Below are positions 1 to 6,875 of a DNA stretch of 64,000 bases, in pieces. The position numbers were made by a program, and so were the translations under genes. The stretch is from Bacillota bacterium (GTDB lineage: Bacteria > Bacillota > Clostridia > Oscillospirales > Acutalibacteraceae). The stretch covers positions 1-64,000 of the forward strand of contig JAETSA010000010.1 in NCBI GenBank assembly GCA_021769885.1. The letters run 5' to 3'. Under the pieces are notes generated by a model. That model was not told the DNA's origin, searched no databases, and was given only the letters and a program-made list of their open reading frames with translations. Numbering within the stretch: position 1 is the first letter of the stretch; each line of letters opens with the position of its first letter.

Positions 1-176
1 CGCAAAATTCACACAAATCTAACGGCGATGCACAAACCTCGTAGGGGCGCGCATTGCGCGCCCGCCGAAGTCTGATGAAATCTTTCGGAACGACACAGGG
101 GTCGTTCCCTACAATTTGTTAATCAAATTCACATTGTGCAAAATTTGCGGAACAACACAGAGGTTGTTCCCCGCCG
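1..176. repeat. Intergenic palindromic module array (array 1)
   Basis: This gene-free stretch carries the dispersed modules found throughout the window. There is a GTAGGGGCG-headed hairpin with stem halves GCGCGC at about 46-62, and two GGAAC-headed hairpins, one in the GGAACGAC...GTCGTTCC form near 87-110 and one in the GGAACAAC...GTTGTTCC form near 151-172. Between them is the AT-rich linker that usually follows (AATTTGTTAATCAAATTCAC). No coding potential is visible. Confidence 0.8.
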
Positions 177-221
177 TCCTATACATCGCTTTAAAGCGTC
201 AAAATATTTTTCGAAAAACGC

Positions 222-250
222 TTGACATTCCGCGTGCAGAGTGATAATAT
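222..250 (+). promoter_or_regulatory. Promoter of the aromatic amino acid operon
   Basis: TTGACA (222-227) and TAATAT (245-250) are separated by 17 bp, a near-consensus sigma-A promoter. It sits about 45 bp upstream of the leader peptide start and 215 bp upstream of aroF, so the transcript carries a long leader holding the attenuator. Confidence 0.85.
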
Positions 251-293
251 ACTTCCATTGGAAAAATCGTAGCATAGGAAAGGGCATTTCCGT

Positions 294-365
294 ATGTCTT
301 GTAAATTGTTTACAGCTGCATATTTTTACTTTTACTTTACCGGCTTTATGGGTAGGGTTAGTTGA
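294..365 (+). CDS. Tyr/Phe-rich leader peptide of the aro operon
   Basis: A 23-codon reading frame starts with ATG at 294, nine bases after a strong ribosome-binding site AGGAAAGGG (276-284), and ends with TGA at 363-365. The translation is MSCKLFTAAYFYFYFTGFMG followed by RVS. Codons 10-15 (321-338) alternate Tyr and Phe: TAT TTT TAC TTT TAC TTT, with another Phe at 345-347. This is the signature of a ribosome-sensing leader peptide such as enterobacterial pheL. The genes downstream make both phenylalanine and tyrosine, matching the codons. Its role would be to stall ribosomes when charged tRNA-Phe or tRNA-Tyr is scarce; the peptide itself probably has no function. A longer overlapping frame (241-480) runs through the terminator and was rejected. 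Confidence 0.88.
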   Translation: MSCKLFTAAYFYFYFTGFMGRVS

Positions 366-446
366 ATTTCGCTGTAAACGTTGTAGTTGCTTTAGATTTT
401 ACGAATTTTTAAACTACGCCGCAGTGAAATTCACTGCGGCGTTTTT
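308..446 (+). promoter_or_regulatory. Transcription attenuator (Phe/Tyr) of the aro operon
   Basis: Three helices can form. Helix 1: GTTTACAGC (308-316, inside the leader peptide) pairs perfectly with GCTGTAAAC (371-379). Helix 2, the antiterminator: GAATTTCGCTG (364-374) pairs with CAGTGAAATTC (422-432), 11 pairs with one G-U. Helix 3, the terminator: 416-426 with 432-442. Helices 1 and 2 share 371-374, and helices 2 and 3 share 422-432, so each excludes the next. A ribosome stalled at the Tyr/Phe codons (321-338) would cover 308-316 and free the antiterminator. A ribosome reaching the stop codon (363-365) would cover 364-374 and let the terminator form. This is the full logic of ribosome-mediated attenuation, read directly from the sequence. 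Confidence 0.85.
416..446 (+). terminator. Leader terminator of the aro attenuator
   Basis: ACGCCGCAGTG (416-426) pairs with CACTGCGGCGT (432-442) around an AAATT loop and is followed by a T-run (442-446). It lies only a few bases before the aroF ribosome-binding site GGAGG (451-455), so it can only serve as a conditional terminator within the leader. Confidence 0.92.
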
Positions 447-464
447 GTGTGGAGGTTTAAAAGT

Positions 465-1469
465 ATGGTTGTTATTTTAAAAGACAATGCCGAACAGAAA
501 AAAGTCAAGACCCTGACGGACTGGCTCGAAAATCAGGGACTTTCCGTGCACACCGTCACCGGTGCATATCAAACCATTTTAGGATTGATTGGGGACACCA
601 GCAAGGTGGATACCGACCTTATAGAGGGGCTGGATATTGTTGCGAAGGTTAAGCGGATTTCAGAGCCGTATAAAAACGCCAACCGCAAGTTCCACCCTGA
701 TGATACGGTCATTGACGTCGGCGGCGTAAAAATCGGCGGCGGCAGCTTCCAGTTTTTCGCCGGTCCCTGCTCGGTGGAAAGCCGCGAACAGATTCTCTCC
801 ATCGCGCGCGATGTGAAGGCGGCAGGCGCAAACATTCTGCGCGGCGGCGCGTTCAAGCCGAGAACCTCACCGTATGCATTCCAAGGGATGCGTGCCGAGG
901 GATTGGAGCTTTTATTAGAGGCGAAAAAAGAAACCGGAATGCCCATCGTTACGGAAATTATGGACGCGTCGCACATTCCGCTGTTTGAAAATGTAGACAT
1001 CATTCAAGTCGGCGCGCGCAATATGCAGAACTTTGAGCTGTTAAAAGAGCTCGGCAAAACGAATAAGCCAATCTTTCTGAAACGCGGGCTTTGCTCGACC
1101 TATCAGGAATGGCTGATGAGCGCGGAATACATTATGGCAGAGGGCAATCAAAATGTTATCCTTTGCGAGCGCGGCATCCGCACCTTTGAAACCGCGACGC
1201 GCAACACCTTGGATTTGACTGCTGTGCCGATGCTTAAGGAAAAAACGCATCTGCCCGTCATTATTGACCCGAGCCACGCGGCAGGCATCGCACGTATGGT
1301 GAAACCGATGTCTTTCGCGGCGGCGGCGTGCGGCGCGGACGGCTTGATGATTGAAGTCCACAACGACCCCGCGCACGCGCTTTGTGACGGTCCGCAGGCA
1401 CTGCGTCCCGAGGAATTTGCAGAGGTCACCGCGGGCGTACAAAAGATTTTGAAGGCAGTAAAGGAATGA
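465..1469 (+). CDS. aroF: 3-deoxy-7-phosphoheptulonate synthase (DAHP synthase, type I-beta)
   Basis: Condenses phosphoenolpyruvate and erythrose 4-phosphate, the first step of the shikimate pathway. The protein is 334 residues, like the Thermotoga-type enzyme. Residues 1 to about 65 form a ferredoxin-like regulatory domain, and the rest is the (beta/alpha)8 barrel. GPCSVES places the metal-binding Cys at residue 102; DPSHAAG and MIEVHNDP supply further metal ligands. In this subfamily the N-terminal domain mediates feedback inhibition by Tyr and Phe (family knowledge). The ATG at 465 is chosen because GGAGG (451-455) sits nine bases upstream; an upstream GTG at 447 lies next to the terminator and lacks a site. 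It is the first gene of the attenuated operon. Confidence 0.95.
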
Positions 1470-1473
1470 AACT

Positions 1474-2319
1474 ATGAAAATCGGTATTGTCGGCTTGGGG
1501 CTGATAGGCGGCTCGCTTGCCAAAGCACTGAAATACAATACGGAGCACACCGTGCTTGGTTGGAATCGAAGCGAAGATACACTTTTAAAGGCAAAACTGC
1601 TCGGCGCGATTGACGGAGAGCTTACGGACGAAGAAATTCCGCAGTGCGATATGCTCATTTGTGCGCTCTACCCGAAGCTGACGGTGGATTTCGTGCTGAA
1701 ATATGCACCCGTGCTCAAAAAGGGCGCGATTGTTTTGGATTGCTGCGGCGTCAAGCGCGTGATTTGCAATACCCTGTGGGAAGCGGCAGATACCTACGGA
1801 TTTAAGTTCTACGGCGGTCACCCGATGGCGGGACTGCATTATTCGGGCTTTTCGTATTCCGATGTAGAGATGTTTCAAAACGCATCAATGGTGCTTGTGC
1901 CCCCGAAGGATGCGGACATCAACGATTTAGCCGATTTAAAGGCACTGTTTTCCTCCATCGGCTTTACCAATCTGCAAATCACCACACCCGAGGAGCACGA
2001 CCGTATTATTGCCTATACCTCACAGCTGGCGCACGTGGTTTCCAACGCCTATGTCAAAAGCCCCGAGGCGCAGGTGCACAGCGGCTTTTCGGCGGGGAGC
2101 TATAAGGATTTGACCCGCGTTGCGAAACTGAATGCGGGGATGTGGACGGAGCTGTTCTTTGACAACGCGGACAATTTGATTTCGGAAATTGACGGGATTA
2201 TTGCCAATTTACAGCAGTACAGCGACGCGCTGAAAGCCCACGATGAAAAAGCCCTGTACACGCTTTTGAAAGCGGGCAGTGACCGCAAGGAAGAAATTGA
2301 CGGAATGTACAAGTCGTAA
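1474..2319 (+). CDS. tyrA: Prephenate dehydrogenase
   Basis: Oxidatively decarboxylates prephenate to 4-hydroxyphenylpyruvate, the tyrosine branch. The 281-residue protein opens with the NAD(P)-binding motif GLGLIGGS, has GGHPMAG with the conserved catalytic His in the middle, and ends with the all-helical dimerisation domain. There is no fused chorismate mutase and no C-terminal ACT domain, so feedback control of this step is not evident from the sequence. It starts 4 bases after aroF and ends 16 bases before aroB. Confidence 0.95.
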   Translation: MKIGIVGLGLIGGSLAKALKYNTEHTVLGWNRSEDTLLKAKLLGAIDGELTDEEIPQCDMLICALYPKLTVDFVLKYAPVLKKGAIVLDCCGVKRVICNTLWEAADTYGFKFYGGHPMAGLHYSGFSYSDVEMFQNASMVLVPPKDADINDLADLKALFSSIGFTNLQITTPEEHDRIIAYTSQLAHVVSNAYVKSPEAQVHSGFSAGSYKDLTRVAKLNAGMWTELFFDNADNLISEIDGIIANLQQYSDALKAHDEKALYTLLKAGSDRKEEIDGMYKS

Positions 2320-2335
2320 AACGGAGGGACAAAAA

Positions 2336-3394
2336 ATGAAAAAGGTTGCCGTGCACACCGGCACAAGCTATGATATTACCATCCAAAACGGCATTTTGGA
2401 CGAAGTCGGCACCTATTTGCGCGCATTGACTGCGGCAAAGACCGCCGTACTCATTACGGACGATATTGTAGACGGTCTGTATGCCGCGCGTGCGGAGAAA
2501 TCCTTACAGGCGGCGGATTTCAGGACGCTCAAATTTGTATTCCCGAACGGTGAGCAGTCGAAAAACATTCATATTTACGCAGAGATTTTAGAGTTCTTAG
2601 CGCAAAACCGCGTCACCCGTACGGACTGCATCGTTGCGCTCGGCGGCGGCGTTGTCGGCGATATGGCGGGCTTTGCGGCGGCGACCTATCAGCGCGGCAT
2701 CGATTTCATTCAAGTCCCGACTACGCTCCTTGCGTGTGTGGATTCCTCTGTCGGCGGCAAAACTGCGATAGATTTGACCGCGGGCAAAAATCTGGCGGGC
2801 GCATTTTATCAGCCACGCGCGGTACTGTGCGACCCCGAAACGCTTTCGACGCTCTCCGACCGTCTGTTTTCCGACGGTATGGCAGAGGTGATTAAATACG
2901 GCGTGATATTTGATAAACCGTTTTTTGATTTTCTTTGTGAAAACGAAGCCAAAGAAAATTTAGAAACCGTTATAGAAACCTGTGTCAAGCTCAAACGCGA
3001 TGTTGTGGAACAGGATGAAAAGGACAGAGGACTGCGCGGGCTTTTAAACTTTGGGCATACCTTGGGGCACGCGGTGGAGGGCTGCAGTGACTTCTCGGTT
3101 TCCCACGGCAGTGCTGTGGCAATCGGGATGGTGCTCGCCTCACGCGGGGCATACCGCACGGGGATGACCGAAAACGACTGCACCGCACCGATTTTGGCTG
3201 CACTCCAAAAATACGATTTACCGACCGCGACAGAATATACCGCACAACAGCTTTTAGACCGCGCCCTTTCCGACAAAAAGCGGGACGGCGGCTCGATTAC
3301 GCTGGTCATTCCAAAGACCTTGGGCGAATGCGTGCTCCAAAAGGTCAGCACCGATGCGCTTCTGCCCTTTATTGAGAAAGGACTCGGACAATGA
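2336..3394 (+). CDS. aroB: 3-dehydroquinate synthase
   Basis: Converts DAHP to 3-dehydroquinate using NAD and a divalent metal. The 352-residue protein has the typical length. NAD binding is seen in ALGGGVVGDMAGF and in VPTTLLACVDSSVGGKT; the metal ligands are Glu in GMAEVIKYG and the His residues in NFGHTLGHA and HGSAVAIGM. The ATG at 2336 follows a strong GGAGG (about 2323-2327); longer in-frame extensions would overlap tyrA without a site. The stop overlaps the aroA start (ATGA), implying translational coupling. Confidence 0.96.
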   Translation: MKKVAVHTGTSYDITIQNGILDEVGTYLRALTAAKTAVLITDDIVDGLYAARAEKSLQAADFRTLKFVFPNGEQSKNIHIYAEILEFLAQNRVTRTDCIVALGGGVVGDMAGFAAATYQRGIDFIQVPTTLLACVDSSVGGKTAIDLTAGKNLAGAFYQPRAVLCDPETLSTLSDRLFSDGMAEVIKYGVIFDKPFFDFLCENEAKENLETVIETCVKLKRDVVEQDEKDRGLRGLLNFGHTLGHAVEGCSDFSVSHGSAVAIGMVLASRGAYRTGMTENDCTAPILAALQKYDLPTATEYTAQQLLDRALSDKKRDGGSITLVIPKTLGECVLQKVSTDALLPFIEKGLGQ

Positions 3395-4653
3395 ACGTCA
3401 AGCTTTCCCCGTCCGCACTTTCGGGCACGGTTTCCGCGATTTCTTCCAAATCCGACGCGCACCGCATCTTAATTGCGGCGGCACTCGCGGACGCGCCTAC
3501 GGAAGTCCGGTGCAACGTCTTATCCGCAGACATTCGCGCTACGGCGGATTGCCTTTGCGCGTTGGGCGCGCACATAGAATTTACAGGCGGAAAAATTTTG
3601 GTAAATCCAATCAGGGAAACGAAAGATTTTTCGTCGCTCGACTGTAACGAAAGCGGCTCGACCCTGCGCTTTTTACTGCCGCTTGTTTCCGCACTCGGCG
3701 TAAACGGCGAGTTTACAGGGCGGGGGCGTCTGCCCGAACGCCCCGTGACCGAATTGCGGCAGGCAATGGAAGCGCACGGCGTCACCTTTTCGCCGAACGG
3801 CGTATTTCCCATTCGCACAAGCGGGAAACTGCAGGCGGGCAAATACATTTTAAAGGGCAATGTCAGCTCACAGTATGTGACAGGTCTGCTGTTTGCTTTG
3901 CCGCTTTTGGACGGGGACAGTGAGATTGAATTGTTGCCGCCTGTCGAGTCGAAAGCATACATTCAAATGACCCTTTCTACTCTACGGCGGTTCGGTATTT
4001 CCGCAGAGCAATCGGAAAACCGTTTCTATATAAAAGGAAAGCAAGCCTACCGTTCGCCCAAATCCGTAACGGTGGACGGCGACTGGTCGAACGCGGCGTT
4101 TTTCCTCACCGCAGGCGCACTGCGTGCCCCCGTGACGGTCACAGGGCTGTTCGCCGATTCCATACAAGGCGACAAAGCGGTGTTAGACGTGCTCTCGAAA
4201 ATGGGCGCAAAGGTCGCGTGGCAGGGGAATGCCGTCACGGTTTCGCCTGCGCCCTTGCACGGCGTAACGGTGGATGTCTCGAACATCCCCGACCTCGTAC
4301 CGATTCTCTCTGTCGCGGCGGCAAATGCCGACGGCGTGACCGAATTTCAAAACGCGGGGCGGCTGCGCATCAAGGAATGTGACCGCTTGTCGGCGATTGC
4401 CGAGCTGCTTGACACGCTCGGTATCCGTACCGAAGAAACCACCGACACCTTGTGTGTATACGGCGGCACGATGCAGGGGGGCGAGGTGCAGGGCTTTAAC
4501 GACCACCGTATGGTGATGTCCGCCGCCGTCGCCGCGACTGCTGCGCAAGGCGCAGTTACAGTCTGCGGTGCACAGGCGATTCGCAAATCCTACCCGCACT
4601 TTTTTGAAGATTTTAAACTTTTGGGAGGCAAAGCCGATGTCCTCGATTCTTGA
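3391..4653 (+). CDS. aroA: 3-phosphoshikimate 1-carboxyvinyltransferase (EPSP synthase)
   Basis: Transfers the enolpyruvyl group of PEP to shikimate 3-phosphate, the sixth pathway step. At 420 residues it has the two-domain length of the family. Motifs: SKSDAHRILIAAAL near the N-terminus (PEP/S3P binding), NESGSTLRFLLPL, SSQYVTGLLFALPL, RIKECDRLSAIAELL and NDHRMVMSAA. It starts in the ATGA overlap with aroB. The end overlaps aroC by 17 bases, another sign of coupled translation. Confidence 0.96.
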   Translation: MNVKLSPSALSGTVSAISSKSDAHRILIAAALADAPTEVRCNVLSADIRATADCLCALGAHIEFTGGKILVNPIRETKDFSSLDCNESGSTLRFLLPLVSALGVNGEFTGRGRLPERPVTELRQAMEAHGVTFSPNGVFPIRTSGKLQAGKYILKGNVSSQYVTGLLFALPLLDGDSEIELLPPVESKAYIQMTLSTLRRFGISAEQSENRFYIKGKQAYRSPKSVTVDGDWSNAAFFLTAGALRAPVTVTGLFADSIQGDKAVLDVLSKMGAKVAWQGNAVTVSPAPLHGVTVDVSNIPDLVPILSVAAANADGVTEFQNAGRLRIKECDRLSAIAELLDTLGIRTEETTDTLCVYGGTMQGGEVQGFNDHRMVMSAAVAATAAQGAVTVCGAQAIRKSYPHFFEDFKLLGGKADVLDS

Positions 4654-5713
4654 AGGCAAACATATTCGGGTTTCCGTATTTGGGCAGTCCCATTCCGCCG
4701 CGATTGGCGCGGTGATTGACGGACTCCCCGCAGGATTTCACATAAACGAAGAAGAAATTGCCGCCTTTATGGCGCGGCGTGCACCGGGCAAAGCGAAATT
4801 CGCGACCTCGCGCAAAGAGGCAGACGCGCCTGTCGTGCTGTCGGGACTCTTAGACGGCGTAACCTGCGGCGCACCGCTCGGGATGCTGATTCAAAACACC
4901 AACACCCGTTCAGGCGATTACAGCAATCTGCGTACAACGCCCCGTCCGTCACATTCCGATTATGCGGCGGTGGTACGCTACAACGGCTTCAACGATATTG
5001 CGGGCGGCGGACATTTTTCAGGCCGCCTGACCGCACCCCTCGTCTTCGCGGGAGCAATTTGCCTGCAAATCCTCAAACAAAAGGGAATTGAAGTCCGCGC
5101 GCATATTTATTCTATCGGCGACGTTCCCGATACACCGTTTAACCCTGTGCATATTCAAAATGAGGATATCGCAGGCAAGGCATTCCCCGTACTTTCCGAC
5201 GAACAGGGCGAAAAAATGCAGGCGGTTATCGAGGCGGCGCGTTTGGATGCGGATTCTGTCGGCGGCGTGGTGGAATGCGCCGTTACAGGTGTGCCTGTCG
5301 GCTTCGGCGACCCGATGTTTGACGGCGTGGAAAATCAGCTTGCACGCAATCTGTTCGCCATTCCTGCGCTCAAGGGCCTGGAGTTCGGAAGCGGCTTTGC
5401 GGGTACAAAAAAACGCGGCAGTGAAAACAACGACCCGTTCACAGTAGATGCAGACGGCAATATCGTCACCGAAAAAAACGACCACGGCGGCATTTTGGGC
5501 GGCATTACTTCGGGAATGCCGATTGTGTTTCGCGCGGCGTTCAAGCCGACGCCCTCTATCGGCAAAACACAGCAAAGCGTGAATTTAGAGAAAAAAACGG
5601 TCGAAGAACTGCAAATCGTCGGTCGGCACGACCCGTGTATTGTCCCGCGTGCCGTGCCTGTGGTTGAAGCGGTTACGGCGATTACAATTTTAGATTTGCT
5701 TGGTGGGAAATAA
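4637..5713 (+). CDS. aroC: Chorismate synthase
   Basis: Anti-1,4-elimination of phosphate from EPSP to give chorismate, with reduced FMN as cofactor. The 358-residue protein starts MSSILEGKHIRVSVFGQSHS and carries the family signatures FGQSHSAAIGAVIDGLPAG, RPSHSDYAAVVRYN and GGGHFSGRLTAPLVFAGAI. The ATG at 4637 has GGGAGG at about 4623-4628. A longer frame from 4568 would overlap aroA deeply and is not supported. pheA follows after one base. Confidence 0.96.
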   Translation: MSSILEGKHIRVSVFGQSHSAAIGAVIDGLPAGFHINEEEIAAFMARRAPGKAKFATSRKEADAPVVLSGLLDGVTCGAPLGMLIQNTNTRSGDYSNLRTTPRPSHSDYAAVVRYNGFNDIAGGGHFSGRLTAPLVFAGAICLQILKQKGIEVRAHIYSIGDVPDTPFNPVHIQNEDIAGKAFPVLSDEQGEKMQAVIEAARLDADSVGGVVECAVTGVPVGFGDPMFDGVENQLARNLFAIPALKGLEFGSGFAGTKKRGSENNDPFTVDADGNIVTEKNDHGGILGGITSGMPIVFRAAFKPTPSIGKTQQSVNLEKKTVEELQIVGRHDPCIVPRAVPVVEAVTAITILDLLGGK

Positions 5714-5714
5714 G

Positions 5715-6875
5715 ATGGAAAATTTGGATTTAAACGAATTACGAGCGGAAATCAACGAAATCGATGCACAGCTGGTTCCGCTGTTTTTAAAGCGAATGGG
5801 CGTTTCTTTAAAGGTGGCACAGTATAAGCAGGCAAACCACAAGCCCGTTTTGGACCGCACACGGGAGCGCGAGCTGTTAAAACGCGTCGGCGGTATGGCA
5901 GAGGACGCGGATTTAGGGCTGTACACGCGATTGCTGTATTCGGATATTATGGGGCTTTCACGCTCCTATCAGCGTAAATATTTGGAAAACGAGATGTCTG
6001 CATTTGTGAAAAAGGTGCAGACCGCCGTGCAGTCGCCGAAGCAGTTGGATCTGCCCGAGGAGGCAATCGTCGCGTGCCAGGGCGTGGAGGGCGCATACTC
6101 GTCGCTTGCGTGCGCACGGCTGTTCAAGCGCCCCGATATTCTGTTTTTTGACGCTTGGGAAGGCGTGTTCTCCGCCGTTCAGCAGGGGCTTTGCCAATAC
6201 GGCATTCTGCCGATTGAAAACAGCACGGCAGGCTCTGTGAACCACGTATATGATTTGATGAATCAATATAAATTTCATATTGTCAAAAGTGTGCGCTTAA
6301 AGGTTGAACACGCATTGCTTGCGAAAAAAGGCGTACGGCTTTCGGAAATTAAAGAGATTTTCTCGCACGAGCAGGCAATCAATCAGTGCAGTTTGTTCTT
6401 AAACGGACTTTCGGACGTAAAGGTCACGGTCTGCGAAAATACCGCCGCCGCCGCAAAGCGTGTGGCGGAAAGCGACCGCCGCGACATCGCCGCCATCTCG
6501 TCAAAGGATTGTATGGAGCTGTACGGGCTGTCCGCGCTTTGTGAAAATATACAAAATTCCGACAGCAACTACACGCGCTTTATTTGCATCGGCAAGGATT
6601 TGGAGATTTTTCCTGGAGCCTGCAAAACCAGTCTGATGCTCACTCTGCCGCATAAGCCCGGCGCACTTTACGATGTGCTGTCGCGCTTTTACGCACTGGA
6701 CATCAATCTTTTAAAGCTGGAAAGCCGTCCGCGCCCGAACAGCGATTTTGAATTTCGATTCTATTTCGACGTGGAAGCATCGGTTTATTCCGAAAACTTT
6801 TTACGGATGCTTTCGGAATTGGAAGCCTCCACCGAGCAGTTCTGCTATCTCGGCAGTTATACCGAGATTTTGTAG
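5715..6875 (+). CDS. pheA: Bifunctional chorismate mutase / prephenate dehydratase (P-protein)
   Basis: Converts chorismate to prephenate and then to phenylpyruvate, the phenylalanine branch. The 386 residues show an AroQ-type mutase (about 1-90; LRAEINEIDAQLVPLFLKRM and KPVLDRTRERELL), the dehydratase domain (about 110-290; GVEGAYSSLACARLF, GILPIENSTAGSVNHVYDLM, and the TRF motif in NYTRFICIG), and an ACT domain at the end with PHKPGALYDVL and LESRP, the Phe-binding GALV/ESRP-type signatures. Phenylalanine feedback is therefore expected in addition to attenuation. The start at 5715 is one base after the aroC stop. It also supplies the mutase for the tyrA branch, since tyrA has none. Confidence 0.95.
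   Translation: MENLDLNELRAEINEIDAQLVPLFLKRMGVSLKVAQYKQANHKPVLDRTRERELLKRVGGMAEDADLGLYTRLLYSDIMGLSRSYQRKYLENEMSAFVKKVQTAVQSPKQLDLPEEAIVACQGVEGAYSSLACARLFKRPDILFFDAWEGVFSAVQQGLCQYGILPIENSTAGSVNHVYDLMNQYKFHIVKSVRLKVEHALLAKKGVRLSEIKEIFSHEQAINQCSLFLNGLSDVKVTVCENTAAAAKRVAESDRRDIAAISSKDCMELYGLSALCENIQNSDSNYTRFICIGKDLEIFPGACKTSLMLTLPHKPGALYDVLSRFYALDINLLKLESRPRPNSDFEFRFYFDVEASVYSENFLRMLSELEASTEQFCYLGSYTEIL

Follow-up and report, generated by a model that had tools for sequence, protein, structure and literature searches.

The window analysed here, by which we mean the whole stretch of 64,000 nt, covers positions 1–64,000 of contig JAETSA010000010.1 of the Bacillota bacterium assembly GCA_021769885.1, a host genome that is 97.6% complete. 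Close to its start lies the operon aroF-tyrA-aroB-aroA-aroC-pheA, preceded by a leader with a short peptide frame and a set of overlapping RNA helices (Table 1). No match for trpE was found in the host genome and none for IGPS exceeded the cut-off, the single match scoring 22 bits; the amino acid products of the operon are therefore probably Tyr and Phe alone, and these absences fit a leader without Trp codons. Among the related loci, the association of a Trp codon in the leader with the presence of IGPS (PF00218) was not significant (11/16 with a Trp codon, 21/51 without; Fisher p = 0.084).

Table 1. Features of the leader and of the operon that it precedes, in window coordinates
Feature	Position	Strand	Basis
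Predicted sigma-70-type promoter: TTGACA 222–227, spacer 17 nt, TAATAT 245–250	222..250	+	sequence
Ribosome-binding site of the leader frame, AGGAAAGGG	276..284	+	sequence
Leader peptide frame: ATG 294, 23 codons (MSCKLFTAAYFYFYFTGFMGRVS), stop TGA 363–365	294..365	+	sequence, conservation
Segment 1, 5' arm of helix 1:2 (protector); partner 371–379, 9/9 Watson-Crick	308..316	+	
Control codons TAT TTT TAC TTT TAC TTT, Tyr-Phe three times (YFYFYF)	321..338	+	sequence, genus alignment
Apical hairpin, 334–341 with 351–358, nested in helix 1:2	334..358	+	92.9% of cells paired, 3/8 pairs double-changed
Segment 2: antiterminator 5' arm 364–374 and helix-1 3' arm 371–379, mutually exclusive	364..379	+	
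Intrinsic terminator, 416–427 with 431–442; T-run 442–446	416..446	+	10 pairs counted, 96.0% paired
Segment 3, antiterminator 3' arm, shared with the terminator; 364–374:422–432 form 11 pairs, one G-U	422..432	+	
aroF, DAHP synthase; alternative start GTG 447	465..1469	+	NF006421 and TIGR01361 over cut-off
tyrA, prephenate dehydrogenase	1474..2319	+	best matches prephenate dehydrogenase models, all below curated cut-offs
aroB, 3-dehydroquinate synthase	2336..3394	+	TIGR01357 over cut-off
aroA, EPSP synthase	3391..4653	+	TIGR01356 over cut-off
aroC, chorismate synthase	4637..5713	+	NF003793 over cut-off
pheA, chorismate mutase-prephenate dehydratase	5715..6875	+	PF00800 over cut-off at 6069–6599; NCBIfam models below cut-off

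An earlier note on this DNA had listed a promoter, a ribosome-binding site, a 23-codon Tyr/Phe frame, helices and a terminator, and each of these elements lies where it had been placed; the leader stop codon (363–365) likewise meets the antiterminator arm (364–374), as the coordinates show. The conserved apical hairpin was absent from that list. When folded, the RNA 255–450 adopts helix 1:2 and the terminator, with a z-score of −4.0 against dinucleotide shuffles, none of 200 being as good. A TTGAC box followed after 16–19 nt by an AT-rich −10 box is found no more than 130 nt upstream of the leader start in 21 of 26 loci of the same genus, and ribosome-binding sites of the GAAAGG type were also seen by eye in several relatives. 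The genome-wide rarity of the Tyr/Phe run was considered as evidence and rejected because the six-codon run by itself is not rare (7 matches as compared with 12 for a reversed control pattern). What counts is therefore its position and its conservation.

AroF was present in 80 of 118 near genomes, and in 70 of these the DNA ahead of one copy was examined, giving 26 genus loci and 44 further loci, the latter group including one additional genus locus, L042. By a fixed rule (at least five Tyr/Phe codons in eight, in a startable frame, within 400 nt), a leader frame precedes aroF in 25 of the 26 genus loci (shuffles 1.0, reverse strand 3) and in 31 of the 44 further loci (shuffles 2.4, reverse strand 0); a terminator-like hairpin follows the frame in all passing loci of both sets. 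At the class level, 181 of 245 genomes had AroF, and 60 loci were taken, 58 of them from other orders; the rule is passed by 35 of the 59 that were usable (shuffles 3.3, reverse strand 9), and a terminator accompanies the frame in 31 of these. With a stricter threshold of six codons in eight, 19/26, 20/44, and 28/59 loci pass in the three sets, where 0.1, 0.3, and 0.3 are expected and 1, 0, and 1 were found on the reverse strand. Among 80 named loci, a set that partly overlaps the others (L087 is apparently a contig of G020), 61 of the 79 usable ones pass (3.5 expected, 5 on the reverse strand), 54 with a terminator. Among the named organisms with a frame of this kind are Angelakisella massiliensis, Yanshouia hominis, Oscillibacter valericigenes, Sporobacter termitidis, and Emergencia sp. 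The rate in the phylum-level search was 9/29 (1.2 expected), with two loci at contig ends, L235 and L254, counted as misses. The only genus miss, L017 (G035), has no leader; its aroF is behind a gene with a TrpS-like product end (by eye), and a terminator-like hairpin is found between the two.

Other forms of leader were also encountered. A second type, seen by eye before aroF in other families (L185, L188, L194, L198, L200, L201, L206, L219, L221, L246, L248, and L261), has a peptide like FYFSWGYFYxAGYFFC, often with GACTCAT..ATGGGTC terminators; its non-aromatic residues recur over long distances, which may come from RNA pairing or from an effect of the peptide. A recurring RFTGF-like motif with fewer aromatic codons is present in L067, L072, L073, L075, L079, L225, and L226, all of which except L073 are below the threshold of the rule. 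Two aro operons with Tyr/Phe leaders of the clostridial type are in metagenome-assembled genomes titled Treponemataceae and Lentisphaerae (L108 and L156), through either transfer or a binning error.

In the alignment of the 25 genus leaders, gaps come in threes up to the end of the run; beyond it, 4 of the 25 rows have a gap that is not in threes. Variation within the run is greatest at third codon positions (0.28), followed by second (0.20) and first positions (0.09). Codons 1 and 3 are Tyr and codons 2 and 4 are Phe or Tyr in all 25 leaders, whereas codon 5 is Tyr in 15; the codon pattern looks as it would under selection for Tyr/Phe. Both amino acids are present in the eight-codon window in 25/25 genus, 29/30 family/order, and 29/31 class leaders, but because random mixing would often bring them together, this co-occurrence shows only that a mix is the norm.

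The RNA structure was taken from the window and compared with the same alignment. In the terminator, 7 of the 10 pairs have changed on both sides, with 37 such cells as compared with 10.9 in shuffled alignments (0/500 reach this number), and helix 1 together with the apical hairpin is 87.3% paired with 27 double-changed cells as compared with 12.3 (0/500), although these counts of double changes are inflated by related rows. Counted by pairs, helix 1 plus the apical hairpin has 6 double-changed pairs out of 17, which is not above shuffles (4.8; 123/500). The eight-pair core of the antiterminator is 99.0% paired (2/500 shuffles reach this value) and has one double-changed pair, again not above shuffles (0.4; 187/500); its low variation is what would be expected of bases that also have to serve the terminator. 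When partners were slid by 1–3 columns, pairing fell to 19–53% across the three helix counts, a comparison in which derivation of the structure from the window favors that structure over the slid versions. The leader frame and the helices, whose conservation the earlier note had left to a check of relatives, are thus both kept, as is the terminator, with pair changes on both sides.

This conservation and covariation make it extremely improbable that the frame is coincidental or acts as a passive uORF, with hairpins that belong to the terminator of an upstream unit or to part of another riboregulator, even though six-codon Tyr/Phe runs are not rare in the genome, which would favor such an explanation. 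A search of window positions 1–3000 against Rfam, which also argues against another riboregulator, yielded five weak matches up to E = 10, all to unrelated families and none that reached gathering level, and 20 class-level leader loci gave only a tRNA at gathering level. In particular, no covariance-model match to the amino-acid leader families of Rfam was found at the leader in the window or, at gathering level, in those 20 loci.

Very likely, the leader is a two-input ribosome-mediated transcription attenuator of the classical kind, for Tyr and Phe. From sequence, conservation, covariation, and composition, we infer ribosome stalling, coupling to the polymerase, termination, and the direction of the response as follows. 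The leader frame would be translated during its own transcription, with three possible outcomes. (i) When charged tRNA-Tyr or tRNA-Phe is in short supply, the ribosome would stall within 321–338, on segment 1, and break helix 1:2; the freed arm 364–374 would pair with 422–432, taking part of the terminator, and RNA polymerase would continue into aroF-tyrA-aroB-aroA-aroC-pheA. (ii) When both charged tRNAs are plentiful, the ribosome would reach the stop codon at 363–365 and cover 364–374, so that the terminator (416–442) would form. (iii) If the ribosome is absent, helix 1:2 and the terminator would form.

Predicted folding is consistent with this scheme. The RNA 352–434, which corresponds to a stalled ribosome and an incomplete 3' arm of the terminator, folds to the antiterminator (−22.7 kcal/mol), whereas at equilibrium the RNA 352–446 folds to the terminator (−27.2 kcal/mol) and the antiterminator is not formed; the choice must therefore fall during transcription. 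The stretch after the run pairs with a terminator arm better than shuffles (p < 0.05) in 20/25 genus, 15/30 family/order, 25/31 class, and 35/53 named leaders. A ribosome at the stop codon overlaps the antiterminator arm in 22/25 genus, 18/30 family/order, and 21/31 class leaders, and also, by its coordinates, in that of the host; with a stalled ribosome the arm is free in every leader, a result partly built in by a search that starts 18 nt into the run. A leader frame with end-product codons, mutually exclusive 1:2, 2:3, and 3:4 helices with a terminator, and codons that match the products of the operon were all found, with the covariation support for exclusive helices being strongest for the terminator. 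By the features tested, the leader is a ribosome-mediated attenuator, and it is outside the leader families of Rfam.

TnaC is a peptide that arrests the ribosome in response to Trp. A similar arrest, in which the nascent peptide (AEYFYFYF..FFGR in the genus) stalls the ribosome on free Tyr, Phe, or chorismate, could account for the conservation in the genus of residues outside the run and for the non-aromatic residues that are kept, by eye, in the second leader type elsewhere. However, the conserved residues of the genus coincide with helix 1 and its apical hairpin, in which compensating changes are frequent, so that pairing can explain them; the flanks differ between families, whereas Tyr and Phe stay, in free order; and the mix of Tyr and Phe tracks the content of the operon. 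Arrest by the peptide is therefore improbable, and attenuation through charged tRNAs is the preferred explanation.

The relation to operon content arose while pheA was being checked, when Tyr-only and Phe-only leaders were seen to go with operons that lack pheA or tyrA, respectively. Annotation covered 180 rows, comprising 100 aroF regions (most with ∼8.5 kb downstream, selected mostly for a leader already noticed there), 79 named loci (at most 7 kb), and the window. Left out of the count were 52 rows with a leader score below 5 or no terminator, 21 with a contig end too near, and one with a chorismate mutase lacking the dehydratase; five loci with neither branch gene were set apart (mean Tyr fraction 0.50), leaving 101 rows. 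The mean Tyr fraction of the leader codons is 0.76 in operons with tyrA only (n = 11, including three named loci in which pheA could lie past the 7 kb seen), 0.50 in those with both genes (n = 72), and 0.34 in those with pheA only (n = 18), and the fraction is correlated with operon type (Spearman 0.59, 0/20000 permutations). Collapsing the loci at 80% AroF identity left 73 points and a coefficient of 0.61 (0/20000), whereas collapsing at 70% left 14 points (p = 0.07) and at 65% left 7 points (p = 0.3). In a PGLS analysis on the AroF tree with full Brownian covariance, the slope per step was 0.24 (p = 3.4e-9), and parsimony counted 19 changes in operon type. Comparison with the nearest relative that has both genes gave the expected difference in 22 cases, the opposite one in 6, and a tie in 1. 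Without the window and the seven fetched loci that prompted the idea, the remaining 93 loci gave means of 0.68, 0.50, and 0.36 (rho 0.49, 0/20000). Exceptions are G027, which has both genes but a YYYYS leader (L299), and G249, in which the operon is without pheA yet the leader is Y3F4 (L332). That leader codon composition follows operon content is the strongest evidence obtained here, and it suggests that in related bacteria the codons of the switch have been retuned to whichever of Tyr and Phe the operon makes.

These data also bear on a switch that responds to Tyr as its single input, with the Phe codons as filler, for which the invariant Tyr at codons 1 and 3 of the 25 genus leaders could be cited, since codon 2 is Tyr in only 6 of them and codon 4 in 4. 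We consider such a switch unlikely, to the same degree as peptide arrest: beyond the genus the counts of Tyr and Phe codons are nearly equal (84:93 and 92:105), operons with pheA only have Phe-rich leaders (that of L265 has zero Tyr in the codon window), and two split-off pheA genes have leaders with Phe only.

The latter two genes relate to a prediction that a pheA outside the operon may need a sensor of its own. In G249 and G271, which belong to one genus, the separate pheA is preceded by the frames MNNFAFTSFGFFFAFTSRGI and MNKFAFTSVNFFFFAFTFEDI, which contain Phe and no Tyr (in either case 2/300 shuffles are as rich), and both show antiterminator pairing (3/200 and 1/200 shuffles as good) and a terminator; each is thus a candidate Phe-only attenuator. 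The stand-alone pheA of G001 and G002 has a weak frame of only 4/8 codons (69/300 shuffles reach this for L368), followed by a terminator, so that the prediction holds in two of the four genomes in which pheA stands alone. In G222, G244, and G081, pheA is after aroC and lacks a leader of its own, and G097 gave no match. An own Tyr leader was found in none of 10 loci with tyrA outside the leader operon (L370–L379), three of which (L371–L373) are directly behind a second aroF. The role of sensor that the earlier note had given to the Tyr and Phe codons is supported by the composition that follows the branch genes and by the Phe-only leaders of the two split-off pheA genes.

T-boxes are used in the same lineage. 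The host genome has nine matches to RF00230, four over the cut-off and none before this operon; eight of the genes that follow are cysE, tyrS, leuA, malQ, a TrpX-like binding protein, trpS, thrS, and pheS, and the ninth is without an assignment. The matches before tyrS and leuA are over the cut-off and those before pheS and trpS are below it, and in trpE loci of relatives a T-box over the cut-off precedes the gene in 2/6, with T-box-like sequence seen by eye in others. T-boxes thus serve aromatic genes in this lineage, but not this operon. Before aroF, a T-box was found in 2 of 20 leaderless class-level loci (L195 and L207) and in none of 16 order-level loci, 11 of which lack a leader according to the rule. 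A T-box decodes a single specifier codon, whereas a leader can read two, and we infer that the reading of two amino acids is the reason for a leader instead of a T-box. Of the host T-box matches, that of L035 (G000:C24:89822-90057; 90.7 bits, just under the cut-off) is directly before malQ (4-alpha-glucanotransferase) and resembles by eye those before trpS and the TrpX-like gene, and that of L033 (G000:C21:2802-3039), over the Rfam cut-off, is before a transposase-like frame (by eye), for which NCBIfam was empty at 1e-30.

The pheL-pheA and trpL-trp attenuators of Enterobacteria are leader families in Rfam. The clostridial leader has in common with them segments that pair as 1:2, 2:3, and 3:4, end-product control codons, and a stop codon beside segment 2, but differs in that it has no Rfam match, would read two amino acids, precedes the common pathway and both branches, and is found in Clostridia that have T-boxes as well.

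Leader-peptide attenuation is known in other Firmicutes. His leader attenuators are described in the Bacillus cereus group, Peptostreptococcaceae, and Erysipelotrichales (PMC9413887, PMC2965389), where one amino acid and other genes are concerned, and the Leu-rich ilv-leu attenuator of Staphylococcus aureus, which acts on another pathway, is supported by mutants (PMC5794164). The closest reports are two candidate F/Y uORFs before shikimate genes, given in a legend of a 2019 study of five genomes and matching the clostridial leader in amino acids and pathway (PMC6429828), and uORFC-13-1, described in 2021 before aroF in 24 sequences with at least one Phe, only from Acholeplasma and unassigned DNA (PMC8632094). 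The latter shares with the clostridial leader a short Phe-containing frame and a terminator before the DAHP synthase gene; compared by description, the section that presents it gives no Tyr/Phe run or link to operon content (PMC8632094). Beyond these two (PMC6429828, PMC8632094), no leader attenuator with Tyr/Phe codons upstream of aro genes in Clostridia was found among the open-access matches listed. The suggestion of the earlier note that such control may be undescribed thus stands in part: uORFs before shikimate genes and aroF were known, whereas a design with two inputs that spans the entire pathway, the breadth of its occurrence in Clostridia, and the retuning of codons were not found in print within that scope and, provisionally, appear to be new.

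For the class as a whole, we regard it as fairly probable that in much of the Clostridia the aromatic operon is under a rewritable two-input attenuator, a Tyr/Phe OR gate beyond the reach of a T-box with one specifier, in which the Tyr:Phe ratio is retuned when tyrA or pheA is absent and a split-off pheA can have a Phe-only attenuator of its own. This reading requires the ribosomes of Firmicutes to keep pace with RNA polymerase along the leader; in B. subtilis, the model organism of that phylum, runaway transcription has been reported, with no mention of Clostridia (PMC13323073). Because the mechanism depends on a ribosome that closely follows the polymerase, the leaders make transcription-translation coupling in Clostridia testable. 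If the reading is true, classical attenuation would move from a rare exception to a common form of aromatic control in a large group of anaerobes that also has T-boxes, and the leaders would represent a natural experiment in which the codons tell to which end product each operon answers.
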